Source: a virus. Taken from it: a DNA stretch of 22,744 nucleotides. The DNA lies in the IMG/VR virus record IMGVR_UViG_3300025071_000061, positions 1 to 22,744 of that record. One strand, given 5' to 3'. Below are positions 1,143 to 22,744 of the stretch, one piece after another. The position numbers were made by a program, and so were the translations under genes. Positions within the stretch are counted from its first letter, which is position 1. The number at the start of each line of letters is the position of its first letter. The notes beneath the pieces were generated by a model. The model ran no database searches, was not told the origin of the DNA, and saw only the letters and a list, made by a program, of their open reading frames with translations.

Positions 1143-3002
1143 TTAGATAATAGAAGCTCCACCAGTGAACGTAAAGCCCATTGTGTAATACATTAACTCA
1201 GGATTGAATCCAGCATCTACTAAAGCAAATCTAGATTTAACCGCGATTTTAGGAGCCATAGTTCCTTCTGCGATTGTTTCTACTGATTCAGCCATTAAGT
1301 AAGGCATAAATACTAATCCAGGAGAGTTACCATCACCTTTACGACCTACTGCTATAGTATAGTCATTAAAAGCTCTGTTAGGATCTACATAGATTGTTAC
1401 CCCAGCAATTGCACCGATTGGATATAAAGATCCACCAGCTTGGTTAACTGTATTAGATAACGGATATGCAATAAATCCAGCTACAGATTGAAGAGCAGTT
1501 GCCATTTCTCCACCTGTTACTGCAAATGATGCAGGTCCTCTTCTTCCTCTAGTAGCAATTAAGTTACTTGCAGCAAGAATTTTAGTATAGATTCTACGTT
1601 GTAGATCTCCTTGTGTGTTTCCACCTTGTCCAACTAGCGTTGCAGCACCAACAGCAACTACCTGAGCAACATTTGTTGTATTATTAGCAGTTAACGTAAC
1701 GTTATTTGCAGCAGCAGCAGCTGTGTTGTATGCATCAGATAACATAGTTCCAGAAACAGCTTGGATATTTACAGCATTTGTAGTTCCATTTCTAAAGATT
1801 CTGTCTAAGATGTATTTATTGATAGATTGAGTTAACTCATTTACCAATACAGCTTCAACTTGAGCAACAGCATCAATTCCGAATTGCTTCAGATCTTGAA
1901 CTTGTTCTCTAGTCACAGCAGCAGCAACTTGGAAAGTTTCAGCAGCTACAGACTTGTTGAATAAGCTTAGTCCCATAACGTTATCAACAGTTGATTCACC
2001 TACACCTCTTAAGTAAGGATCTAAACCGTTAGCATTCTGGTTAGCAAAAGCAGGCCCGCCAGTAGCAGGATCATTTGCAGGTTGAAAAGCATTACCAGAG
2101 AAACCAGAAATATGATCTTCTAGAGCTTTTACTAAACCTAACTGAGAACCACCTTGAGCAGTTGCAGTTACTTGAGCAACAGCGTTAGTACCAGCAATAC
2201 CGAATCCTACGATTGCAGCACCTAATGCAGGTCTTACTCCGTTTACTCTTGCTAAACCGTATAATCTTCCAGCTTGTACAATTGAATTGTAAATAGTTCC
2301 AGAAGCAGTTTCAGCACCTTGAGCATAATTGAATCCAGAGTTTCCTGCAGTTCCAGCAGCAACATTAAGTGCTGTTGTATTTGCTCTTACTCTAAATATT
2401 TGTAATCCGTCTATTCTTGAAGCACCTACGTAAGTTAATTCGTAAGCAGCACCTACAGCCTGAGCTACAGTTGGAACAGCGATTGGATCTGCATAATAAA
2501 GATCATTTACTGCAAAAGCAGATGCATCTGTATTAGCTACACTAAATTTAATTAGTAATGGAGCAGCAGTAGTATCTAAAGCGCCGTTTAATGGAGCTCC
2601 TGATCCTCTACCTCCACCATATACAAAGTCTAGGTAAGTTAAAACTCCCATTGGGCCTTGCATTGGTACTACAGGTACTAAGTCTAAACCTACAGTCTGA
2701 GCAGCTACTTGCATTGCAAGTGGTAGCAAAGAAAAAGGTCTGTCACCAGATCCAGCAGCTTGTGCTGGGAAAGCATTCATTGATCCAGGGTTTCCTGGCA
2801 ATGTTACGTTCCCCATACTTTGAACATTCATGTTCGGGTTAAGGTGTACAGTATTGTAAACACTCTCATTAAGGTTATGGTAATGGCAGTACTTAGACAT
2901 CCAAGATAACTTAGACTTTTCAGTAATTCCAGTACTTTCCTCAATAACAGGTCCCCAAGTCTTTTGAACCTCAGCCTCGTTGATTAATTGATTTGCGTAC
3001 AT
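1143..3002 (-). CDS. 23: Major capsid protein, gp23-like
   Basis: A 619-residue homologue of T4 gp23 (521 residues in T4), the HK97-fold subunit of the head lattice. The N-terminal delta region contains a WGPVIEE segment like the start of other gp23 proteins. Residues about 95-130 (LPLAMQVAAQTVGLDLVPV, then PMQGPMG and a YLDFVYG end) match the conserved block after the T4 maturation site. Candidate protease sites are LINE/A near residue 9 and NLNE/S at 43-47; the second lies where T4 gp23 is trimmed. Residues about 135-300 are rich in Ala, Val, Thr and Gly and probably account for the extra length, perhaps as an insertion domain. It follows the protease/scaffold gene in the usual T4 head-gene order and is closed by a strong terminator. 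The assignment is strong; the exact cleavage site is inferred. Confidence 0.93.
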   Translation of the reverse strand: MYANQLINEAEVQKTWGPVIEESTGITEKSKLSWMSKYCHYHNLNESVYNTVHLNPNMNVQSMGNVTLPGNPGSMNAFPAQAAGSGDRPFSLLPLAMQVAAQTVGLDLVPVVPMQGPMGVLTYLDFVYGGGRGSGAPLNGALDTTAAPLLIKFSVANTDASAFAVNDLYYADPIAVPTVAQAVGAAYELTYVGASRIDGLQIFRVRANTTALNVAAGTAGNSGFNYAQGAETASGTIYNSIVQAGRLYGLARVNGVRPALGAAIVGFGIAGTNAVAQVTATAQGGSQLGLVKALEDHISGFSGNAFQPANDPATGGPAFANQNANGLDPYLRGVGESTVDNVMGLSLFNKSVAAETFQVAAAVTREQVQDLKQFGIDAVAQVEAVLVNELTQSINKYILDRIFRNGTTNAVNIQAVSGTMLSDAYNTAAAAANNVTLTANNTTNVAQVVAVGAATLVGQGGNTQGDLQRRIYTKILAASNLIATRGRRGPASFAVTGGEMATALQSVAGFIAYPLSNTVNQAGGSLYPIGAIAGVTIYVDPNRAFNDYTIAVGRKGDGNSPGLVFMPYLMAESVETIAEGTMAPKIAVKSRFALVDAGFNPELMYYTMGFTFTGGASII

Positions 3003-3110: not shown

Positions 3111-4340
3111 TTATCTATTTAATCTGAATTTCATTTTTTGAATTAAATCTGCTGAATAGCTTTCATTTAATAATGGCTCAGTTTTAGTTTGAGCAGCCTC
3201 AGCAGCAGTTTTACTTTCGTTCAGAGTTTCTAAATTCATTTGAGTATCTCTAAGATCTCTTGTTTGCCAAAAGTTATTAATGGCATAAGGAGTACTTAAC
3301 GAATGGAATTTAGATTCTGATATGATTTGTTCTTTTCTATTTTCAGAAAGAGCATTCCATTTATCAGAATACTTTGATGGCATATCATTAATAAAGTTAA
3401 TTGCCTTTCTTTCAGTTATAAAACATGAATCCCAAACATTCTCTGCTTGCACAGTTGACATGATTTGATTTGAATTCATTGATTCAACTAATAGAACTTT
3501 TTTGTCATCAGCCAAAGAATCAAATTGATTCTTTTTAGATTCTGATAAGAAATTCATAAAGTGCATTTCAGAAACATTCTTAGCTTCAGCCTTAGAAATT
3601 AAACTTTCTAATTTTTCACTAATAGTATCTTTGTAAGATTTCTTTTCTTCTTGCATACACTTATCGCACATTTCCTTTATTGCGCCTTTGTCAGCATCAG
3701 GATATTGTTCGCATACTTGTTCGTATTTCATACCTTCTCCCATACATTTAGAAACTTCTTCCATAGTTGGAGTATATCCTTCTTTCATTTTGCCATATTC
3801 ATTAACAGCAGATTCATTAATTGATGTTCCTTCAACAGTATTTGCATTTTCAGCAATATACTCCGAATATTTAATAGACTTAGTTAAATTTTCACCAAGA
3901 TATTCTGAATAAGCAATATTCTTATCAACAGTTTCAGCAACATATTCTGAATAGTCAATTCCTTTTTCTAGTTTTTCTCCTAAATAATTAGAATACTCAA
4001 TTCCTTTGTCTGCTTGTTCAGCAACATGCTCAGTATATTGAATAGAACTATCTAGTTCTTCTCCTAAATAAGAAGCGTAATTTTTAATTTTATCTATATT
4101 CTCTGCTAAGTAGTCAGAGTGAGATATACTCTTGTCAAGATTTTCTGATAAGTATTCAGTATAATCAGTTACCTGATTTACTTTCTCTGCAATATGCTCA
4201 GTATATGTAACTAGTTTTTGTAATAGTTCATCACTGTTTGAGTTAGCAGATTCCTTAACACTGTCTAAAGTATCTTTTACATATTCAGTGTACTTATTGA
4301 AATCCTCAACAGTTACAAAATTTCCGGATGTATTTTCCAT
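3111..4340 (-). CDS. 22: Possible internally initiated scaffold protein (gp22-like), in frame within the protease gene
   Basis: An ATG at 4340 (Met198 of the long protein) would give a 409-residue protein starting MENTSGNFVTVEDF. That is just after the protease domain and before the 14-residue repeats. The 13-base stretch ATAAAACAAATAA lies 13 nt before this ATG, and the identical 13 bases lie 11 nt before the start of the full gene. A separate scaffold made from the same frame as the protease has a precedent in lambda C/Nu3. That this start is used is inference. Confidence 0.5.
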   Translation of the reverse strand: MENTSGNFVTVEDFNKYTEYVKDTLDSVKESANSNSDELLQKLVTYTEHIAEKVNQVTDYTEYLSENLDKSISHSDYLAENIDKIKNYASYLGEELDSSIQYTEHVAEQADKGIEYSNYLGEKLEKGIDYSEYVAETVDKNIAYSEYLGENLTKSIKYSEYIAENANTVEGTSINESAVNEYGKMKEGYTPTMEEVSKCMGEGMKYEQVCEQYPDADKGAIKEMCDKCMQEEKKSYKDTISEKLESLISKAEAKNVSEMHFMNFLSESKKNQFDSLADDKKVLLVESMNSNQIMSTVQAENVWDSCFITERKAINFINDMPSKYSDKWNALSENRKEQIISESKFHSLSTPYAINNFWQTRDLRDTQMNLETLNESKTAAEAAQTKTEPLLNESYSADLIQKMKFRLNR

Positions 4341-4977: not shown

Positions 4978-6624
4978 TTAGATTCCAGCTAATGGGTCAT
5001 CATCTATACCATCATCTTTCTTCTCTGGCTTAAAATCTTTAGGATTAGCGCCTAAAAGAATCTTTTCAATATCTTCGTTTTTATATCCCTCTGCTTCTAA
5101 GTCAGTACGTTCTTTAGCACGAGCGTTTGCTTTAATATCATCGCGTGTAAATCCACCATATCTCTTAATTAAGAATCCTAAATCAAAATATGGTATTTCT
5201 TCCATTTCAGCAGTCATTGTACTTAATTGAGTTTTCATATTACCAATAAAATCAACACGCTTTGTCTGTAACTCCATTTCTTTCATTTCTTCAAATACAT
5301 TATCTTTCATAAAGTTTAATCCTAAACCGGCTTTAAATGCAATATCATTTTTTAATTCAGGATGATTAAGACACATTTGTAGATACATTGGCTTAACTAA
5401 TATTTCTTGCCATATTGATCTTAATCTTGAAATAAACCTTCCAAACTTAATTTCATCTCTTAGCATACCACTTGCTTCCATATCATAAGTATTACCACCT
5501 TCTCTATCAAACCTAGAAAATGGTATCTTAGAAGCTAATTGTAATTTATCAGAGAAATATTTTAAAGATTCAGTATCACCTAAATCAGGACCATCCCCAC
5601 CTATTGTTTGAATTTCTGGAGCATCGCCATCTTTAGAAGGTAACCAGTATTCTTTATTAAACGGCATCATTGGTTTACCATTTGTTTGAATCTCACCACT
5701 CTCAAAGTTAAAGTCTACAACCTCACGATATGAATTCATTAATGTTGCTAGAGATTGTTTTGCTCTGGTTTTTGATTTACCACCAACAGGTATTGTAAAT
5801 TGTGTTTTAAATGAAGCATTAGATACTGCCCAGATAATTCTACTGTGTTCCATTATTCTTAATAGATTAAAAGATCTTATTAATCTTTCAACATAAGATA
5901 TTCTCATTGGAGAATTAACTTGTGAATATGAAATATAAATTATTTGAGAATCCCATAATGTTCTCTCCTTTGCCCCTTCGCCTTTATATTGAATCCAAAC
6001 TTTTTTACCATCATCAGTATCAATACCTGGCATTAATGATATAGGATCTAATTCTTTAAAACCAATAATCTCGGTTTGCTTATCATTATAAACTATTTCA
6101 AATGCAAGATATCCATCGATTAGCCATTTTCTAAAATAATTCCATGGAGCAACTGAATCATTAAATCCGAAGTAATTATAGATATTATTATATACATCAG
6201 CAATCTCTTCTTCAATTGATTCTCCAATATGACCATTAAAGTCTGCATAAGCCATGTAATTAGATTCATCAAATACAATTGCTTCATCAGTTAATACATC
6301 TAAGATATCCTCTATTTCATCTTGTACTGCAAAGGTTCTAAGTTGGTCTCTTTTTCTGGTGTAGTCTTGGTCGAAAAATGCAATATTTTTCTTCATGTTA
6401 GTATCAGTCAATGATAGCGCAGCAAATGCACCATACATATCATCACCATCTGAACCCATAGGATTAAATGAATAACCCATTTGATTTTCAGTAAAACCTA
6501 CTGCTCTAGAATTACGAATGATCATATCATCATAAGCCATTCCTAAATTAGAAAGATCTTTAAGAAGCTTTCGTACTGGGTTCCCTGTACTTAAAGGACC
6601 TCTTCTATCTGTAAAACCTGCCAT
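4978..6624 (-). CDS. 20: Portal vertex protein, gp20-like
   Basis: A 548-residue homologue of T4 gp20 (524 residues). Twelve copies form the head vertex through which DNA is packaged and to which the tail attaches. Recognisable family segments are the VQDEIEDILDVLTDEAIV helix near 100-117, the WNYFRKWLIDGYLAFEIVY segment near 161-179, followed by the FKELDP turn at 189-194 that corresponds to RRLDP in T4, and the later SKIPFSRFDREGGN segment. The C-terminus is acidic (DDGIDDDPLAGI). Its candidate promoter overlaps the stop codon of the gene before it. It lies directly upstream of the protease/scaffold and capsid genes, the T4 order. Confidence 0.93.
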   Translation of the reverse strand: MAGFTDRRGPLSTGNPVRKLLKDLSNLGMAYDDMIIRNSRAVGFTENQMGYSFNPMGSDGDDMYGAFAALSLTDTNMKKNIAFFDQDYTRKRDQLRTFAVQDEIEDILDVLTDEAIVFDESNYMAYADFNGHIGESIEEEIADVYNNIYNYFGFNDSVAPWNYFRKWLIDGYLAFEIVYNDKQTEIIGFKELDPISLMPGIDTDDGKKVWIQYKGEGAKERTLWDSQIIYISYSQVNSPMRISYVERLIRSFNLLRIMEHSRIIWAVSNASFKTQFTIPVGGKSKTRAKQSLATLMNSYREVVDFNFESGEIQTNGKPMMPFNKEYWLPSKDGDAPEIQTIGGDGPDLGDTESLKYFSDKLQLASKIPFSRFDREGGNTYDMEASGMLRDEIKFGRFISRLRSIWQEILVKPMYLQMCLNHPELKNDIAFKAGLGLNFMKDNVFEEMKEMELQTKRVDFIGNMKTQLSTMTAEMEEIPYFDLGFLIKRYGGFTRDDIKANARAKERTDLEAEGYKNEDIEKILLGANPKDFKPEKKDDGIDDDPLAGI

Positions 6625-8163: not shown

Positions 8164-10050
8164 TTAAATCTTAACTTCTAAATCGCCTTTTGGCATTACT
8201 ATACTTTTTCCATCTTTAGGAACAATTACACTTAACATATCATCATCGCCTAGTGAAGCATATTCTTCAGCAGAAACTAATACTTCTTGTTTCTTTTTTA
8301 AGCCATTACCGTTCTTTTTAACTAATGCTTCTACGAAACCATCATTTAAATAGTCGTCTTTACTTTTTTTTTCAGAAATATATGAATCAGCTAATTCTTT
8401 TTCTTTTCCTTTTAACTCTTCAGCTAATAAATTTAAAGCTTCAGTTAATTCTTCAGTTTCACCTAACTTCTTAATAGCGGCTTCAACTTCAGATTTCTTT
8501 TCTTCTAAGAAAGAAATAGAATCAGTAAGATCTTTTCTTTTGTTTTCATCAATTGCCTTTTCATTATTCTCTGCAATTAATCTTTCAGAAAGAATTGGAG
8601 AAACATCAAAGTTAATAAATTCTTTTACTATTTCAACAGTTTCTGTAGCAGTATCAATTTTTGACATTTCATTTAAGTTCATTCCAGGATTTACTTTATT
8701 AATGTATATACCTTCATTTACTCCGATCATTGTTAAAAATACATCAGCAAATTCTTGATTTTGAATAGTTGTAAAATTATCCATTTCAGCAATCATATCG
8801 ACTGATTCAAAGAATTTACAAATTTTATCATTTTGCCATTGGTTTCTGTATCCTGAGAAATTAGTTGCCAATAAAGATTCCTTTAATTCAATTATACTAT
8901 AATTAGTCATATCAATTTTACCCATCGTTAAAGTACCTTCAGTAATGTTGTATTCTAATGATTTACCGTTTTCTCCATGTAATGAAAGAATGTTTCCATT
9001 TCTTGAGAACATAGCTAAACCTTCAGATACATCGAAGAATCTTGGATCAGTTACATTAGCTTCAGTAATGTCGGTTCCATTATAAGTATAATTCTTTCCG
9101 TGTAAGTTAAATGTTAATCCTTCTTCAGATTCTAATACTGGAGAAAGCACAGATACAACTTTACCATTTGCAGTAGATGCAACCTTTTGATCTTCAGCAT
9201 TCATTTCATTTACTATTTGCTTAGCATCTGTTGACCATGGGTGCTTTGCAGCAACAACAGCAAATTTAGATTTTACATCTGATTCATTTAATAAAGAAAC
9301 TAAATCTGAATTAAATGATTCTATTAGTTTTCCTTTTTGATTTTCTGTTCTTGCAATAGATTCACTAATTCTAAATTCCCATTTAGCATTATTATATGAT
9401 TCCATTATATACTCTCTCAATTCAGAAATTGGATTTAACCAAGTTGATTGAGCTAATTTAGTATATAAGTTTCTTGCAATTTTAAATTTAAGATCTGGGC
9501 TAACTGAATTTTCTAACTCTTCACTAATAGCAGAAAGATCTGCATTTTTCAGTTTCATTGGAAATGCAGTTATTGCATTTTCCAAAATCGTTAAAGATTC
9601 TTTAACAGAATACGAAACTCTGGAATTGTCATTATCCATTGCCTTTAGTCCATTAATACTATCCACAACGTTTTCGTATAGGTCTGTTAATGTAAATTTC
9701 ATTTTGTTATGATTTTTTTGTTTATTATTATTTTCAGTGTATATATCGGATTGATCTGGCATGCTTTCACGATACTTTGAAATACCGCTCATTGCCATTT
9801 GTTGTGGAATTCCCATTCCTACCAAAATTGTCATGACTTGTTGATCTGTCATAGATCCACTATGATCAATTTTACCATCATTATCAATATCTGACATTCT
9901 ACCACTTTGGCTAAACAATACATGAATTATATCCATTAATTGCTGGCTTGGTTGATTTAAGTAAGGAGCAGACGTATTTACACCAGGTTGAGCATCAATT
10001 GCCCCATCTGCATAAACTTGTGTTTGTCCTTCGTTGATTGTGTTTTCCAT
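8164..10050 (-). CDS. Probable virion protein with EF-hand-like loop and C-terminal coiled coil
   Basis: A 628-residue protein of unknown function. Residues 1-8 (MENTINEG) carry an I-N-E site like other proteins of this phage that may be cut by the prohead protease. Residues 54-65 (DIDNDGKIDHSG) fit the D-x-D-x-D-G-x-I part of an EF-hand calcium loop, although the usual acidic residue at position 12 is Gly. An Asn/Lys-rich hinge at 105-116 precedes Met117, from which a second product could start (MKFTLTDLYENVVDS). The long middle holds many L/I-x-E-S segments. Residues about 515-575 (SFLEEKKSEVEAAIKKLGE onward) are strongly coiled-coil-like. It lies between a tail-completion gene and gp55 and ends at a terminator. 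A structural role is inferred from location and motifs. Confidence 0.6.
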   Translation of the reverse strand: MENTINEGQTQVYADGAIDAQPGVNTSAPYLNQPSQQLMDIIHVLFSQSGRMSDIDNDGKIDHSGSMTDQQVMTILVGMGIPQQMAMSGISKYRESMPDQSDIYTENNNKQKNHNKMKFTLTDLYENVVDSINGLKAMDNDNSRVSYSVKESLTILENAITAFPMKLKNADLSAISEELENSVSPDLKFKIARNLYTKLAQSTWLNPISELREYIMESYNNAKWEFRISESIARTENQKGKLIESFNSDLVSLLNESDVKSKFAVVAAKHPWSTDAKQIVNEMNAEDQKVASTANGKVVSVLSPVLESEEGLTFNLHGKNYTYNGTDITEANVTDPRFFDVSEGLAMFSRNGNILSLHGENGKSLEYNITEGTLTMGKIDMTNYSIIELKESLLATNFSGYRNQWQNDKICKFFESVDMIAEMDNFTTIQNQEFADVFLTMIGVNEGIYINKVNPGMNLNEMSKIDTATETVEIVKEFINFDVSPILSERLIAENNEKAIDENKRKDLTDSISFLEEKKSEVEAAIKKLGETEELTEALNLLAEELKGKEKELADSYISEKKSKDDYLNDGFVEALVKKNGNGLKKKQEVLVSAEEYASLGDDDMLSVIVPKDGKSIVMPKGDLEVKI

Positions 10051-14400: not shown

Positions 14401-15687
14401 TTATCCTGATATATCATCGGTTTCCGTTAACCTCATATGTTCATAATCAATATCAAATTTACACCTTGAGCCTTTTCCTTGCCCATCTCTAATTTTTAAA
14501 ACCTTTAACCAATATTCACGCTCTGCGTGCATTACTGAATCCTGTATTAACGCATACATTACATCAGCAGTATGCGCAAGACCTGCAGATTCTGCAATGT
14601 TTTCCATTCTTACCTCGGTTGCATCCCATGCACCACGATTAATCTGAGTTGCAGATATTACTAACATATCTCTTTTAACTGCTAATGCCCTAAGATCTTC
14701 TGCAATTTGCTTTATCTTCATATAAGTATTTTCAGTATTAGGATTTCTATAATTTGCAAGAATATTAATATAATCTACAACTAATACATTTACTTTATGA
14801 TCAGTGGTTTCTTCTAAGTCTTTTAGATAAGCTTCTATATCTGGTATAGTTCCTTGTGAAGTTGGATATTCTTTAACAAATAATTTACCAGGAGGTAGTA
14901 AACCTCTTGATACCTTTTCCAATCTTCTCTTCATATAATCTCTATTGCTTGAATTTTTATCATAATCAGTCATAGGAATATGTAATAGATTTGAACCTAT
15001 TCTTTTTAATACCTTTTGTGCTGACATTTCAGCAGTGATGAAAACCACATTATGACCCATCTTAACAAAATTAGCTGCATCATTGGCTAACCATATAGAT
15101 TTACCAATGTTTTGTTCACCTGCATAAACAATTAAAGATTTTGTATCATAGCCTCCTCCTGATACTCTATCAACAAAAGACCACCCAGTTTCTATTTTCT
15201 TGGATGTTCTTTGTATATGTGATTCAGGATTAAAAAAATCTAAACCTGTATCTGTATCAAAATTAATTGATCCATCAGTAGAGATCATTCCTATTGCACG
15301 CTGAACAACATCTTCTACGTTTTCTGGAGATACATCTTGAGTTTTTACATATTCAATTGTTCTTACTAATTGTTTATCAAAATGTTTCCATTTAACCCAC
15401 GCCTCTCCAGTTCTCTTTAACCAATCTTGATCATATTCATTAATATTAATATCATAAATAGATTTTACAATATCCTGAGATATATCATTAGGATCATCTT
15501 TAACTAAAGCTGACATCTGTTGTTTAGATGGACTTTCACCAAACTTTAAATAAAAATCTTTTGATAACTTTGCAATCTGATCTAAATCCCTATTTGCAAA
15601 AAAGCCTTTACCTGTTCCTTTTAGATAATGTGGCTTTGTTAAAAAATAGTTAAAGAAAATCTTTTCGTGATCTATGCTTGATTTCAT
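14401..15687 (-). CDS. 41: Replicative DNA helicase, gp41 (DnaB-type)
   Basis: A 428-residue RecA-fold hexameric helicase (T4 gp41 is 475) that unwinds DNA ahead of the polymerase. The N-terminal 160 residues form the helical domain. Walker A is GEQNIGKS at 190-197, with Gln-Asn in place of the usual small residues. FITAEMSAQKVLKRI at 216-230 is typical of DnaB-like helicases. Walker B is VLVVDYINIL at 301-310, the TQINRG segment is at 347-352, and KIRDGQGKG at 398-406 probably carries the arginine-finger region. No separate primase (gp61) is seen in this window. A 22-base upstream element is shared exactly with the 79-residue gene. Confidence 0.93.
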   Translation of the reverse strand: MKSSIDHEKIFFNYFLTKPHYLKGTGKGFFANRDLDQIAKLSKDFYLKFGESPSKQQMSALVKDDPNDISQDIVKSIYDININEYDQDWLKRTGEAWVKWKHFDKQLVRTIEYVKTQDVSPENVEDVVQRAIGMISTDGSINFDTDTGLDFFNPESHIQRTSKKIETGWSFVDRVSGGGYDTKSLIVYAGEQNIGKSIWLANDAANFVKMGHNVVFITAEMSAQKVLKRIGSNLLHIPMTDYDKNSSNRDYMKRRLEKVSRGLLPPGKLFVKEYPTSQGTIPDIEAYLKDLEETTDHKVNVLVVDYINILANYRNPNTENTYMKIKQIAEDLRALAVKRDMLVISATQINRGAWDATEVRMENIAESAGLAHTADVMYALIQDSVMHAEREYWLKVLKIRDGQGKGSRCKFDIDYEHMRLTETDDISG

Positions 15688-15725: not shown

Positions 15726-16028
15726 TTATTGGTATGGATTATAAATTACTTCATATGTAGTATAGGCAGAATTTTGTAAAGATATTTCTAAAAATTCATG
15801 TTTAAGTAATTCTTTTAAAAGAACATTACACTGCTCTTTAGATAAATTCCATCTTTTTGCCATTGAGACATCTGTAAACTTTATATCTTTAGCAACCTTG
15901 CCACAATAATCACGTATTAATTCAAAAAGTACATCTTCAGCATCAGGATATTGTGGTAGTGTTGTGTGATTTCCTAATACATACTTTACTTTAAGCTTTG
16001 CTGTATTAAGAGTTTTCGGTAACATCAT
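15726..16028 (-). CDS. Small protein, possible winged helix, between uvsX and gp41
   Basis: About 100 residues starting MMLPKTLNTAKLKVKYV. I chose the ATG at 16028 over the TTG one codon upstream. Residues about 50-95 (DVSMAKRWNLSKEQCNVLLK, then FLEISLQNSAYTTYEVIYNP) read like a helix-turn-helix followed by a beta wing, so DNA binding is possible. The start overlaps the end of uvsX by 23 bases in another frame, suggesting coupled translation. In T4 the small gene 40 occupies this place between uvsX and 41, but I see no sequence basis for calling this gp40. Confidence 0.7.
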   Translation of the reverse strand: MMLPKTLNTAKLKVKYVLGNHTTLPQYPDAEDVLFELIRDYCGKVAKDIKFTDVSMAKRWNLSKEQCNVLLKELLKHEFLEISLQNSAYTTYEVIYNPYQ

Positions 16029-17211
16029 CAACTGTTTCTGTAATTATGTTTCCTAATTCTTCTTGATCCAATTCATCACCATAAGTAAATTTAGCATTCA
16101 CAATAGGTTCTATTAATTTTAATACATCTTCAGTTAAAACCTGAGGGGTATATAATTGACTAAGATCTACTGCATCATTTAAGTGTTTAACACAGATCTT
16201 ACGAGCAGTTGCAGCAGGTTGGAAATAAACAGTTACATCTTTTTTATCTTTTGTAAAAGAATGTTGTCTACATTCAGACTTTCCTATGTCAGTTAATTTA
16301 TTAAAAGCGCCTTCAGTAATAAATCTTCCTCTTTCAATACCACATGTATCCCAACTAATGTATTCTTCTAATCCTACATAAGGATTCATACCTTTATTAA
16401 AAGAAATATGGAATTTAATATTTGTAGGTTTTGCAAATCTATTTTTATTAGGCTTAGCAGTTACAATAATACCAGTTTGTTCTACACCTTCTTTAAGTTT
16501 AGCTTTACCTAAAAATAAAATAATCGATGCTGCATATTCTGGCCCTGTACCGCCACCTCCAACTTGTCTTGAGAATAAGTCTTGTGTTTGGTAGGTATGA
16601 TTAGTAAACAAGAATGGAATTTTACAAATACCGAATTGTGTCATAATAATTCTAAAGGTAGATTTTAATAATTTAGCTCTAGTCATATCTGCTTTACTGC
16701 TTCCAGTTTTTGCATCATCAATTTCTTTTTGAGTTGCAAGGTTACCAGCAGAATCTAAAACTACCATTATTTTAGGTAATGCAATTCCTTTTTTCTTTTG
16801 CTCTATTAATACATCAGTAATTGCAGTTACTGAACTTCTAAATTCTTGAACAGTATTACATGGCTCATATCTAAAAGTTTTTGGATCAATACCAAATTTT
16901 TCAACTAATGATTTGTCTACTGCGTTTTCTGAATCATAAAAGATAATACTATATCCTTGTTTCTGTGCCTGTTTAATTGCATTTAAAATAAGATATGTTT
17001 TTCCTGTACCTGATGGTCCTGCTAATGCAACAGCTCTGTTATTTGGATAACCACCAAATAATGATCCTGTTAAACATGCATTAAGATGAAAGTTTCCAGT
17101 AGGTATATAATGATCAATTTCTGAAATTGTTGATTTGTCTAAAGTATTTCCGTACTCGGATATCTTTGACATTTCTTTGTTTAAATCTGCGAATGAGAAT
17201 TCCTTTGCCAT
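16006..17211 (-). CDS. uvsX: RecA-like recombinase UvsX
   Basis: A 401-residue strand-exchange protein (T4 UvsX is 391) that coats single-stranded DNA and drives recombination-dependent replication and repair. Walker A is GPSGTGKT at 65-72. FYDSENAVD at 91-99 corresponds to the RecA segment with the catalytic Glu (here Glu95). Walker B is IMVVLDSAGNLAT at 148-160. VGGGGTGPEYAASIILFLG matches the DNA-binding loop 2 and following strand. The C-terminus is acidic (DDVTENS). Neighbours are a glycosyltransferase pair upstream and the helicase region downstream, the same order as bgt-uvsX-40-41 in T4. Confidence 0.93.
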   Translation of the reverse strand: MAKEFSFADLNKEMSKISEYGNTLDKSTISEIDHYIPTGNFHLNACLTGSLFGGYPNNRAVALAGPSGTGKTYLILNAIKQAQKQGYSIIFYDSENAVDKSLVEKFGIDPKTFRYEPCNTVQEFRSSVTAITDVLIEQKKKGIALPKIMVVLDSAGNLATQKEIDDAKTGSSKADMTRAKLLKSTFRIIMTQFGICKIPFLFTNHTYQTQDLFSRQVGGGGTGPEYAASIILFLGKAKLKEGVEQTGIIVTAKPNKNRFAKPTNIKFHISFNKGMNPYVGLEEYISWDTCGIERGRFITEGAFNKLTDIGKSECRQHSFTKDKKDVTVYFQPAATARKICVKHLNDAVDLSQLYTPQVLTEDVLKLIEPIVNAKFTYGDELDQEELGNIITETVDDVTENS

Positions 17212-17254: not shown

Positions 17255-18154
17255 TTAAGTTTTATTAGAGTTTAATCTTTTTTCAATTAGAGGCTTCCAG
17301 TATGTTTTAGCAACATATTCCCAGTTTAATTCACGTGCCAATTCTTCATACACATCATTAATATATTTTTCTAATTTTCTAGGATTAGAATTTAAATCAT
17401 TTATAATAGATACTGCCTCATCTACTGTTGTGAATGTTTTTATACTCTTAAACTTTGATGCATATCCTACTGGTGTGGATATTACTGGTATTTTGCAAAA
17501 CGCTGCTTCTGCAATACCATAAGGCCCTGCCTCACTACGACTAGTACAAATATACATATCTATATCTTTATATAAGTTGTGGTGTTCATTACTAGATTTG
17601 CTATGTATAAACTCATATTTAATATTGGCATTAAGTGCGATATTTCTCATCATTTCAGGTCTTTTTATATAATCCCATCCATCATAAGTACCCGGTTGCC
17701 CGCTTAATCCTAATGTAGTTATCTTATTAATCTTTCGAGTAGGGAAGAAATCCTTTTTGTTAACCCCAGCAATAACGCTCATGGCATTTATATTAAAAAG
17801 ATCTTTTAGTGATTTTTGGATAGCAAGTGTTGGTGCACCCCAAAGAATATCAGGATTATCACCAATTAATTCAATAAAATAACCACCTTCTAAATTAGGC
17901 TCTGCCCACGAAACACAAATAGCCTTTTTATAAAAGTTAGGATCTGTTTTATCATTAAGCTTTGATATCGTACCGTTACTAAGTATAGCATCATAATCAT
18001 TCCAAGTAGAATTAAATTCAAGAATGTCATTATTATTATGCCAATTAAAAAATTTAAAATCATAATCATTAGAAAGATATTCTATAATGCTGTCATGAAT
18101 TCTACCAATAGACCAACCTTTATTGCTGTATATAGCTATTTTAGGTTTTAGCTT
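17255..18154 (-). CDS. Second glycosyltransferase (GT4-like), no start codon; probably made by -1 frameshift
   Basis: The open frame runs without a stop for 299 residues and reads as a GT-B glycosyltransferase from its first strand: KLKPKIAIYSNKGWSIGRIH, then VSWAEPNLEGGYF near 81-93, VIAGVNKKDFFP near 127-138, and SRSEAGPYGIAEA at 205-217 with the E-x7-E pair Glu208/Glu216. No ATG, GTG or TTG occurs in this frame from the upstream in-frame stop (near 18191) to the ATG at 17782, which lies in the middle of the fold between the two lobes. Starting there would lose the whole N-terminal domain. The frame is -1 relative to the first glycosyltransferase, whose last codons are GAA AAA AAA AGC TAA. 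A -1 slip on the A9 run (18153-18161) continues into this frame and gives a fusion of about 694 residues. A pseudogene or a homopolymer length error is the alternative. Confidence 0.75.
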   Translation of the reverse strand, partial: KLKPKIAIYSNKGWSIGRIHDSIIEYLSNDYDFKFFNWHNNNDILEFNSTWNDYDAILSNGTISKLNDKTDPNFYKKAICVSWAEPNLEGGYFIELIGDNPDILWGAPTLAIQKSLKDLFNINAMSVIAGVNKKDFFPTRKINKITTLGLSGQPGTYDGWDYIKRPEMMRNIALNANIKYEFIHSKSSNEHHNLYKDIDMYICTSRSEAGPYGIAEAAFCKIPVISTPVGYASKFKSIKTFTTVDEAVSIINDLNSNPRKLEKYINDVYEELARELNWEYVAKTYWKPLIEKRLNSNKT

Positions 18155-18161
18155 TTTTTTT
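18130..18161 (-). other. Candidate -1 ribosomal frameshift (or transcript slippage) site
   Basis: The minus strand has nine A residues at 18153-18161, in zero frame GAA AAA AAA AGC TAA, so an A-AAA-AAA heptamer directly precedes the stop. Just downstream, AGCTA (18149-18153) can pair with TAGCT (18134-18138) around a 10-base loop. AACCT in that loop is complementary to AGGTT about 16 nt further on (around 18115-18119), so a small pseudoknot is possible. The pairing is short and the spacer is almost nil. Confidence 0.55.
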
Positions 18162-19338
18162 CTAAAGGAGTTCCATCTGAATTTAAACCTCTATCATCTG
18201 CTAAATACTTTTCATCATATAGTGAAATATCATTAATAGTATACCACCCTTTATCTTGAGATATATCTAAAACATCATTAAAGAAAGTTTCATATTTAGG
18301 AGCAATATTTTTTAATGAGAATTTTTCACCATGATTTCTACAGTCAATAGATTTTATTTTACCATCACGGCAATCCTTAGCAGCTTTAACAAAATCTTCA
18401 AAGGTTCTACATCTATAACCAGTATGACCATGAATGTTATTTTCTGTAAATGCTCCCCAGTCAGTTGTAATAGTTGGAGTACCACAAAGTAAATTTTCTA
18501 TTTGTACCCCACCGAATGGTTCAACATACATAGAAGGTAAGAATGATGCTATAGCACCCTTCATTAAATCTTTACGTTCTTTCATCCCAACATAACCCAT
18601 AAACTCAACATGATCAGGCCATTTATAATCAGGTTCTGCATAAGGACCGGCTAATTGACCAGCCACTTTTAACTTAGCCCCAATTGCGTGAGTTGCTTGT
18701 ATTGCAATATTAAGACCTTTGCCATCATATACTCTACCTACAAATAAATAATAATCTTCTTTTTTAGCAGAGTATTCAAATTCATCTAAATCAAAATAAT
18801 TAGGAATAACAATATCATACCAAGATTGATTACACATACCAACATTATCTAAACCACAATAAGCGTGATATATCGAATAAGATTCAAATATTTTAAAATT
18901 AGCCCAATGTCCATGTGCATATCCAATACCTGGTTCAATTACATTAAGGTCAGGGTGAGCATCACAAATTGGTCTAACACCACCGCCCCAAAAAGGTAAA
19001 ATAATATCTCCTGGTTGCTTTCTTTTACCAATTTCTTCAATTGCATTTTTATAAAATTCTGTATATGCTGCATCGTTGACATCAAAGGTAAAAAATTTAC
19101 TATGAAAATCATGATCACCATAAACTGCATCCCATTTCTCTGCTGTGATTACAGGTATTAATTCATCGGCACAAGGATTAGATTCTTCATGACCATAATG
19201 CATTAAGTGGTGGCCTCTACCTTCCATCATTTTACAAAACTTCCATACTTTCATTGTGTATGCACAAGCAGTAAAATCTAAAGTAGTTTTTGTATGAGGT
19301 AAACCTAATAAGTGAATCCTAAATTTTCGATTAAGCAT
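18148..19338 (-). CDS. Glycosyltransferase, family 4-like (GT-B fold)
   Basis: A 396-residue protein with the features of a retaining GT-B glycosyltransferase. The C-terminal lobe starts with YYLFVGRVYDGKGLNIAIQA at 196-215, a typical first strand and phosphate-binding loop. The nucleotide-sugar site SMYVEPFGGVQIENLLCGTP at 269-288 has the E-x7-E pair Glu273/Glu281. The N-terminal lobe contains HHLMHYGHE, ILPFWGGG and EPGIGYAHGHW. No signal or membrane segment is seen, so it should act in the cytoplasm. It lies between gp43 and uvsX, the place of the DNA beta-glucosyltransferase in T4, so a DNA-base substrate is possible; a cell-surface or protein substrate is equally open. It ends in an A9 run that leads into the second glycosyltransferase frame. 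Confidence 0.88.
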   Translation of the reverse strand: MLNRKFRIHLLGLPHTKTTLDFTACAYTMKVWKFCKMMEGRGHHLMHYGHEESNPCADELIPVITAEKWDAVYGDHDFHSKFFTFDVNDAAYTEFYKNAIEEIGKRKQPGDIILPFWGGGVRPICDAHPDLNVIEPGIGYAHGHWANFKIFESYSIYHAYCGLDNVGMCNQSWYDIVIPNYFDLDEFEYSAKKEDYYLFVGRVYDGKGLNIAIQATHAIGAKLKVAGQLAGPYAEPDYKWPDHVEFMGYVGMKERKDLMKGAIASFLPSMYVEPFGGVQIENLLCGTPTITTDWGAFTENNIHGHTGYRCRTFEDFVKAAKDCRDGKIKSIDCRNHGEKFSLKNIAPKYETFFNDVLDISQDKGWYTINDISLYDEKYLADDRGLNSDGTPLEKKS

Positions 19339-19374: not shown

Positions 19375-20499
19375 TTAAAATAAGCTGGTTGTGTAAATTA
19401 AGTTTCTGTTAAATGCCTTAAACCCCATTGCAGTTACTACTCGATTAATAGGATCTAATATAGTTTTTTCAAATTGCCTATCATGATCAATTTCTGGTGC
19501 AAATTCATAAGGATAATCACCTGGTGCAAATGCGAATACATCACATGCTTTATCTTTAGAGAAATACATTTTACATTTTTCACCATTTCCTAGTGGCTGA
19601 TATTTACCTTTAGATGAAGAATTGTTTAATAAGTAATTATGATAACCTGCAGATCTTACACCTATTGGGCACCTTGATGCAAATTCAAACGCTTCATAAT
19701 CGTTTGTAATATATTTTTGATAATTATTTACTTTCCTAGAAAAACAAATTTGATCTACATTAGCTAATTTAAATTGTCTTTTAATATCTTTAAGTAGAGC
19801 AGCAAACGCTTTCATATCTAATTTATCAACCGAAAAGATATATGTCAATAAATCTTTAAGTTTTTCTCTAGCAAATATTGGAGTTGATGATTGAATAATT
19901 TCAAAACCTTTTGAACTAATTTTAGACAAATCTTCATAATGAATATCTGGATCTTTCCATACAATATTTTGCATGTACTTTTTCTTAGCTAACCATATTG
20001 CATTTTTAGCAATACTTTCTAATTCAAAAGATAAAAAGTTTTCTGCATTATTATCATCAGCATATTTTTGAAGAATTTTTTCTAAATAACCATTTACTCT
20101 AACCTTATATAATTTTAAAATAAATTCCTTTTCATCACCTTCCCAGCCTTCTGATTTTGCTATTACTTCATCAAACTTTACATATACTGAATCTGTATCA
20201 ATATAAATACCTACAGGATTTTCTATTCTACCTGTTACTGTAATTCCCATTTCTTTATGGGCAGCGATATCTTTATGCCAATATTTACTAAAGTACATGT
20301 TAAGTAATTCTTCAGTATATAGAATTGCATCTTTACCTTGTAATGTTATAGTCTCTGCTATATCAACATTAAAGAAATAAAAGTAAGGATTACCAAATGC
20401 ACCATAAATAGAGTTAAGCATTAACTTAACTGCTTGTTCATAATTATAAAACTTACTAGCTTCTTTTTGTATTTGTTCTAACTCAGTAGTTTCTGTCAT
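19375..20499 (-). CDS. 43: DNA polymerase gp43, C-terminal half (split B-family polymerase)
   Basis: A 374-residue protein covering only the fingers end, palm and thumb of a family B polymerase. Motif B is KLMLNSIYGAFGNP at 25-38. Motif C is YIDTDSVY at 99-106 with both catalytic Asp residues. KKKY is at 171-174, and GFEIIQSSTP ends at 206 where T4 has QQSSTP. The C-terminus ends LIYTTSLF, in the place of the T4 clamp-binding tail SLDFLFG. Motif A (D-x-x-SLYPS), the 3'-5' exonuclease and the N-terminal domain are absent, and none is encoded upstream in this window. The start MTETTELEQI is one base after the stop of the 79-residue gene. The other half must be elsewhere, as in the bipartite gp43 described for some Aeromonas T4-like phages. 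Confidence 0.9.
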   Translation of the reverse strand: MTETTELEQIQKEASKFYNYEQAVKLMLNSIYGAFGNPYFYFFNVDIAETITLQGKDAILYTEELLNMYFSKYWHKDIAAHKEMGITVTGRIENPVGIYIDTDSVYVKFDEVIAKSEGWEGDEKEFILKLYKVRVNGYLEKILQKYADDNNAENFLSFELESIAKNAIWLAKKKYMQNIVWKDPDIHYEDLSKISSKGFEIIQSSTPIFAREKLKDLLTYIFSVDKLDMKAFAALLKDIKRQFKLANVDQICFSRKVNNYQKYITNDYEAFEFASRCPIGVRSAGYHNYLLNNSSSKGKYQPLGNGEKCKMYFSKDKACDVFAFAPGDYPYEFAPEIDHDRQFEKTILDPINRVVTAMGFKAFNRNLIYTTSLF

Positions 20500-21631: not shown

Positions 21632-22744
21632 TTAAAAAGTACTCTTAACTTTATACTTCTTTTTAGGTATTGCACCTAGCTCTTCCGTTACTAAGATTTT
21701 CTGACTTGTATTATCCTGCTTCATAAAAGTAAAGTTTGTCATTTTAGCTTTACCTTCACAGAATTTTTTAACTTCTACTGCCATATCCATTGCAGTTGTT
21801 GCTGGTACATTTTGAGCAATATGATTAACTTGCCTAGCATCTTTAATTCCAAAGTCTAATGGTAATCCCATTAAGTGTAACATTTCTCTAATGTTTAGAT
21901 ACCTGTTTTCTGTTGGGTGTACGCCATTAAACATATTTCTACCAATAAGAGCAGAAAAGCTTTCATTAAAGAAATGTGGTGAAGCATCCCAATAACCTAA
22001 ACCTTGGCTTGTTTTATATTTCTGGTGTTCTAACATATCACCAAATGATTTTGTTGATTTTTTATTAGAGAATCCTTGTTTATGATAATTTTTATCTAAC
22101 CATTGAATACATTCATCTAATAAATCATTCTTTTCTAAATATTGAGCAATTGTACCTTTACCAAATTTCTTAGCAAAATCAGCATGATTTAATTCTTCTT
22201 TTTCTAATACAAATTCATAAGGTTTATAATGATCTGTTACTTTTCCTGCTACCATAAACATATCTTGTAATGTTGCATCTTTTGGAATTTCTGCAAGATA
22301 ATCTATAAGATGTTTCTTTTCTCTAAACTTCCAACCTAGCATAGGAACTGTTGGTGTATTCCAAAAGAAATAAAATGTTCTTATTCTTCTTTGTGGTATT
22401 CCATGCAATTCAGTATTAGTTTTAATTAAAGAAAAACTATATCCATATTTTTCACCGATGGCTTTAAGGTTATCAACAACACCTTCTCCCATTTTAGTAA
22501 AAAGACCTGGCGCATTTTCACCCCATAAGACTTTAGGTTTAACGTTCTCCAAAACATACTCTGCTGAATTATACATCCATTGATTTTGAACCGCATCAGA
22601 TCCTCTAGATGAGGCGCTACCACTAGCAGAATTTAACTGAGATAAACCTGCACACGGACAAACAGAATTTACAAAATCTACTCGTTCAAATGTTTGGTTA
22701 GGAATATCTAATTCTTCATGATCTATTCTATACATAGGTACATC
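21632..22744 (-). CDS. C5-cytosine DNA methyltransferase, 5' end outside window
   Basis: At least 367 residues of a Dcm-type enzyme that transfers a methyl group from S-adenosylmethionine to C5 of cytosine in DNA. Counted from the ATG at 22735, motif IV with the catalytic Cys is CPCAGLSQ at 26-33, motif VI is ENAPGL at 73-78, and motif VIII is HGIPQRRIR at 111-119. The C-terminal part has REMLHLMGLP and QNVPATTA (motifs IX-X). Motif I (F-x-G-x-G), which binds the cofactor and normally lies 70-90 residues before motif IV, is missing. The frame stays open to the window edge (Asp-Val-Pro before that Met), so the gene surely continues outside. A methylase could protect phage DNA from host restriction. 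No partner restriction enzyme is visible. Confidence 0.9.
   Translation of the reverse strand, partial: DVPMYRIDHEELDIPNQTFERVDFVNSVCPCAGLSQLNSASGSASSRGSDAVQNQWMYNSAEYVLENVKPKVLWGENAPGLFTKMGEGVVDNLKAIGEKYGYSFSLIKTNTELHGIPQRRIRTFYFFWNTPTVPMLGWKFREKKHLIDYLAEIPKDATLQDMFMVAGKVTDHYKPYEFVLEKEELNHADFAKKFGKGTIAQYLEKNDLLDECIQWLDKNYHKQGFSNKKSTKSFGDMLEHQKYKTSQGLGYWDASPHFFNESFSALIGRNMFNGVHPTENRYLNIREMLHLMGLPLDFGIKDARQVNHIAQNVPATTAMDMAVEVKKFCEGKAKMTNFTFMKQDNTSQKILVTEELGAIPKKKYKVKSTF

Follow-up and report, generated by a model that had tools for sequence, protein, structure and literature searches.

Comparative evidence for −1 recoding at a conserved A run joining two glycosyltransferase modules in T4-like phages

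Known slippage systems and the glycosyltransferase junction

In dnaX, an A run marks a domain boundary near a stop codon and one gene gives rise to two product lengths, by transcriptional slippage on A9 in Thermus thermophilus and by a ribosomal −1 frameshift in Escherichia coli (PMC1088944). In the tssM1 gene of Citrobacter rodentium, slippage on a poly-A tract (A11) just ahead of the zero-frame stop leads to a longer protein, and both forms are required (PMC4256274); a longer protein likewise results from A9 transcriptional slippage in IS elements (PMC1088944). In tailed phages, programmed recoding is known mainly for the tail assembly chaperones, for which the −1 frameshift of gpG/gpGT generates a short form and a fusion with the downstream frame (PMC10885494).

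Here we describe a pair of phage glycosyltransferases, GT1 and GT2, encoded on a viral DNA stretch of 22,744 nucleotides (IMG/VR record IMGVR_UViG_3300025071_000061, positions 1 to 22,744), which will be referred to as the window. Unlike tssM1 and the IS elements, which serve secretion and transposition, and unlike the structural chaperone gpG/gpGT, this locus encodes two enzymes, and recoding appears to set the ratio of single to double enzyme. In contrast to Thermus dnaX, whose long product is made in the zero frame, the long GT1-GT2 product needs the shift and adds a whole second enzyme. Homologues of GT1 with about 60% identity are found in cyanophages as group-1 glycosyltransferases (PHROG 3408; ACG-2014f, S-CAM7); in the inspected record of ACG-2014f the homologue has no GT2 partner, the next gene being annotated as PiuC. 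A recoded glycosyltransferase pair in phages was not found in the open-access literature searched, which is consistent with, though no proof of, the claim of an earlier sequence-only reading of the window that no such case had been described. The slippage mechanism is known, and a pair of phage enzymes appears to be a new setting for it, as far as this limited search allows.

GT1 is encoded on the minus strand (19338-18148), and its zero-frame product of 396 aa is a group-1 (GT4-like) glycosyltransferase. Its 3′ end reads ...CCT TTA GAA AAA AAA AGC TAA, comprising an A9 run at 18153-18161 (T9 on the plus strand), which holds the in-frame heptamer A_AAA_AAA, and the stop codon TAA at 18148-18150, 2 nt past the run. 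GT2 occupies an open frame of 311 codons, stop to stop, on the same strand (18190-17255), which is −1 relative to GT1 and reads ...RKKKLKPKIAIYSNKGW... The frame contains no ATG, GTG or TTG before the ATG at 17780-17782, 123 codons past the A9 run and deep in the fold beyond the N-terminal Rossmann half. A plain start-to-stop ORF list consequently truncates GT2 to 175 aa in the window and to 222 aa in the relative L001, compared to about 300. The sequence-only reading had described the second frame as startless, in the −1 frame of the first enzyme and preceded by the end GAA AAA AAA AGC TAA; checking of ORFs and start codons confirmed this, and the startless −1 frame behind A9 is a real observation.

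We propose that GT1 and GT2 represent a single recoded gene. Most readings would end at the GT1 stop, resulting in the 396-aa glycosyltransferase, whereas a fraction would shift at A9 into the −1 frame, either by RNA polymerase inserting one A into the mRNA or by the ribosome stepping back one base on A_AAA_AAA. The shifted product, a predicted 694-aa GT1-GT2 fusion with the junction ...GTPLEKKKLKPKIAIYSNKGW..., would carry the second GT-B module attached via a short lysine-rich linker, and the GT2 module would be exchanged by recombination. Based on the comparison presented below, and without RNA, peptide or read data, programmed −1 recoding at the A run yielding GT1 plus a fusion of about 694 aa is very likely. 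No protein was measured, and that the fusion is made, and in which share, is inferred.

Conservation of the junction in related phages

Scanning of viral contigs (IMG/VR) with GT1 and GT2 of the window, and later with other GT2 proteins, yielded 22 distinct GT1-GT2 junctions including that of the window. GT2 is startless in 14 of these, represented by 22 contigs in all: the window, L001 (six contigs), L006, L007, L008, L011, L012 (two contigs), L020, L095, L096, L106, L107, L113 (two contigs) and L116 (two contigs). In all 14, GT2 is in the −1 frame and an uninterrupted A8-A10 run is located 1-15 nt upstream of the GT1 stop, with A9 in eleven, A10 in two (L008, L020) and A8 only in L106. All three codon phases (0, 1 and 2) occur for the start of the run, and an in-frame A_AAA_AAA or A_AAA_AAC is present at every one of these junctions. 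Common to them is further the conserved first strand of GT2 without a standard start ahead of it. Two of them have a start codon close by, a GTG within strand 1 in L096 and an ATG just after strand 1 in L020; both could start a trimmed GT2 alone and thus represent a point against our proposal. The comparison demonstrates that the A run, the −1 relation and the missing start are conserved across the 14 distinct junctions.

An ordinary start near the GT1 stop was detected at the other eight junctions (L014, L017, L018, L098, L099, L104, L105, L128), in most of which the ATG overlaps the stop (ATGA, TGATG). GT2 homologues with their own ATG begin at the same boundary as the first strand of the startless GT2, and the comparison places a domain boundary at the slip site. 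Searching annotated phage genomes with GT2 gave zero matches, and searching bacterial genomes gave weak partial matches only (E 1e-9 or weaker).

The sequence-only reading had named two findings in relatives that would refute it, decay and an ATG-started GT2. Decay was not found, and no in-frame GT1-GT2 fusion is present among the 22 distinct junctions. ATG-started GT2 homologues, in contrast, do occur in close relatives at this very locus. These do not refute recoding, since they carry a different, swappable cassette with a GT2 about 30% identical, and they leave the startless ones unexplained. The predicted sizes of 396 and about 694 residues held, and the comparison lends strong support to a programmed −1 fusion.

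A sequencing or assembly error in the homopolymer, or a decaying gene, might produce the same picture, and a single contig alone could not rule this out. However, the 14 distinct junctions originate from many metagenomes, and the same junction is identical between assemblies wherever several exist, e.g., six for L001. Pairwise dN/dS of GT2 is low, with 0.10-0.25 in startless pairs compared to 0.13-0.18 in ATG-started pairs, demonstrating that the startless GT2 is under purifying selection, and fold and residues are conserved. Short of raw reads, error and decay are refuted by the comparison and all but excluded.

Long A runs are rare elsewhere in these phages, as evaluated by synonymous-codon shuffling within the 197 ORFs of 18 sequences, which comprise 58,231 codons. 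A single run of A≥9 was observed beyond the junction tails versus 25.5 ± 3.5 expected, and it is also the only one of A≥8, for which 48 were expected. Thirteen of the 14 coding A≥9 runs belong to the 3′ ends of GT1 genes, namely those of 12 startless junctions and of L098. The counts derive from related sequences and hence are not independent; nevertheless, the contrast is large. Among the 13 startless loci other than the window (5.5-13 kb each), L106 has A8 at the junction; each of the remaining 12 carries no further A≥9 run on the strand concerned, except L020, which has one more. This rarity indicates that long A runs are purged everywhere except at the ends of GT1. The only A≥8 coding run outside junction tails in the 18 sequences is a second A9 in the window, which lies on the minus strand at 8364-8372, is read in frame within an ORF of 628 aa (8164-10050; ...NGLKKKQEVLV...) and might be another slip site. 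In L098, the GT1 end carries A9 (3977-3985) despite GT2 having its own ATG, with a −1-frame TAA between run and ATG; this might represent a leftover of the slip arrangement or a step towards it.

As an alternative to recoding, GT2 might be made as its own protein, with ribosomes reinitiating at a non-standard codon (AUA, AUU) beside the GT1 stop in a manner coupled to GT1 termination. In favor of this, the ATG-started homologues at the same locus overlap the GT1 stop, making coupling a neighbouring solution, and ATA is found at that place in most junctions of the window clade, overlapping TAG in several. However, the aligned codon varies (ATA, GTA, GTG, GTT, CTA, ATT), with GTA, GTT and CTA being non-initiators, and a Shine-Dalgarno (SD) sequence ahead of it was not seen. 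Moreover, reinitiation leaves unexplained the A8-A10 run and the −1 frame at all 14 junctions, such runs being avoided elsewhere. We consider it very unlikely; a non-AUG start codon common to GT2 was ruled out, as the aligned codon differs between junctions.

The run could also represent a phase-variable contingency locus, in which DNA replication slippage alters its length and toggles the fusion. Homopolymers of 9-10 mutate easily, and glycosyltransferases are common among phase-variable bacterial genes. Nevertheless, all 22 contigs share the −1 phase regardless of how long the run is and in which phase it starts, with no in-frame case among them, and independent assemblies of one junction agree. 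Phase variation thus appears very unlikely, although it is not excluded as a minor layer.

Transcriptional or ribosomal slippage

For the favored explanation, programmed recoding, the sequence-only reading had offered a dnaX-type slip site or polymerase slippage on A9, which held only in part since the layer is not settled. In the absence of RNA data, the slipping layer, RNA polymerase or ribosome, is inferred and undecided; we lean slightly towards transcription, and both might contribute. An A9 run suits transcriptional slippage no less than a ribosomal slip as in E. coli dnaX. Thirteen of the 14 runs are A9 or longer, in any phase of the run, while seven As would suffice for a ribosomal slip. 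Many bacterial genomes show selection against slippage at a length of nine As (PMC1088944). The heptamer A_AAA_AAG, linked to high ribosomal frameshifting in E. coli (PMC4066793), is never used among the 14 startless junctions.

E. coli dnaX is known to possess a stimulator; in contrast, neither a conserved downstream hairpin nor a conserved upstream SD was seen at the 14 startless junctions, pseudoknots not being covered. The minimum free energies of 60 nt gave z values between −0.94 and +0.73 in 13 junctions and −4.3 in L096 (pseudoknots left out), and SD-like motifs are scattered among the junctions. One proven case of −1 frameshifting without an established stimulator has been described (PMC4066793).

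On the ribosomal side, the criterion of an in-frame X_XXY_YYZ heptamer is met at all 14 junctions. Elsewhere in these phages, A7 runs occur at 0.28 and 0.31 of expectation in the two phases creating A_AAA_AAN, compared to 0.91 in the third. This phase-specific avoidance argues that host ribosomes evidently slip at A_AAA_AAN and that ribosomal slippage matters too. The A8 of L106, with A_AAA_AAC, is short for transcriptional slippage and counts towards the ribosome. Avoidance of A≥8 does not separate the two layers, because such a run contains an in-frame heptamer in any phase.

Two enzyme modules and exchange of the second

Both modules match PF00534 (Glycos_transf_1) above its curated cut-off of 26.4 bits, GT1 with 61.8 bits (E 7e-17) and GT2 with 34.3 bits (E 2e-8), and GT1 is assigned to PHROG 3408 glycosyltransferase with E 1.6e-160. 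For GT2, 310 aa were submitted to AlphaFold2, and the resulting model (pLDDT 87.5, pTM 0.85) shows a complete GT-B fold; its best Foldseek matches are GT4-type enzymes (6eji, SenB, BshA; E 3e-10 to 1e-8). The first beta strand is predicted at residues 16-21 of the submitted sequence, directly past the lysines encoded by the run. The sequence-only reading had taken GT2 for a complete GT-B protein from its first strand, and at the level of model prediction this held. The GT1 model (pLDDT 76.9) falls below 50 over most of the C-terminal tail (residues 382-396), which is predicted to be disordered. As this tail contains the A9 run, the slip site would lie in a linker that connects the two folded enzymes.

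The E-x7-E region of retaining GT4 enzymes, as read from the sequence, is kept in both modules (EPFGGVQIE in GT1, EAGPYGIAE in GT2), making two active transferases plausible; activity is inferred without biochemical data. The most likely function, again by inference only, appears to be the stepwise addition of two sugars to a glycan of the phage or the host, and a host surface glycan, a virion glycoprotein or modified DNA are possible substrates.

In the window, the pair is flanked upstream by one half of a split gp43 (19375-20499, minus strand), identified by PF00136, PHROG 1918 and synteny as the C-terminal portion of a family B DNA polymerase, and downstream by a UvsX/RecA-like recombinase (16006-17211, minus strand), identified by reading of the sequence and the T4-like gene order. 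These flanks surround the pair in the window and in most A9-type and most ATG-type relatives, whereas L020 and L128 have it elsewhere. The polymerase half is a separate ATG-started gene conserved in relatives, and a C5 cytosine methylase, of relevance to modified DNA as a possible substrate, is encoded near the pair in the window (21632-22735).

L104 and L105 are among the backbones closest to the window (polymerase 98% and 96%, UvsX 94-95% identical); their pair, however, is ATG-started, with 66-67% identity for GT1 and about 30% for GT2. L095, with UvsX 94% and gp41 97% identical to the window, is of the A9 type. Between L012 (A9) and L014 (ATG), nucleotide homology stops 22 nt upstream of A9 and resumes at the GT2 stop, indicating an exchange of the GT2 cassette in which one breakpoint lay close to the slip site. 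In accordance with this, the GT1 and GT2 trees disagree. As GT2 of the startless L020 falls in the ATG clade, at least two changes of the A-run state are required on the tree of GT2.

Since phages with near-identical neighbouring genes use either type of pair, slip-fused and ATG-started pairs at one locus offer a natural comparison for asking why two enzymes are fused by slippage rather than made separately. Swapping of GT2 modules among such phages might reflect diversifying pressure, as inferred from the exchange, with host glycans or defences as its suggested source. A bolder reading would be that of an exchangeable cassette in a T4-like phage lineage, in which RNA polymerase slippage at A9-A10 sets a defined ratio of mono- to bifunctional glycosyltransferase and the region of the slip site also serves as the recombination boundary for swapping second modules; taking both parts together, we regard this as less likely than not.

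Some relatives differ in the arrangement of GT1. In L105 (1711-3992), GT1 is present twice in tandem, the copies sharing 58% and 66% identity with GT1 of the window and being followed by the ATG-started GT2, and in L019 (6001-7665) a GT1 homologue is joined in frame to a methyltransferase domain. ORFs of similar length (about 555-594 aa), whose domains were not checked, are present in L030, L032, L033 and L040. GT1 possibly serves as a base for differing C-terminal partners. The gp20-, gp41- and gp23-like proteins of the window (4978-6624, 14401-15687 and 1143-3002) are closest to those of LR756500.1, a 462-kb uncultured phage, with 62%, 59% and 55% identity, respectively, and the window may therefore derive from a T4-like lineage of large genomes that has no isolates.
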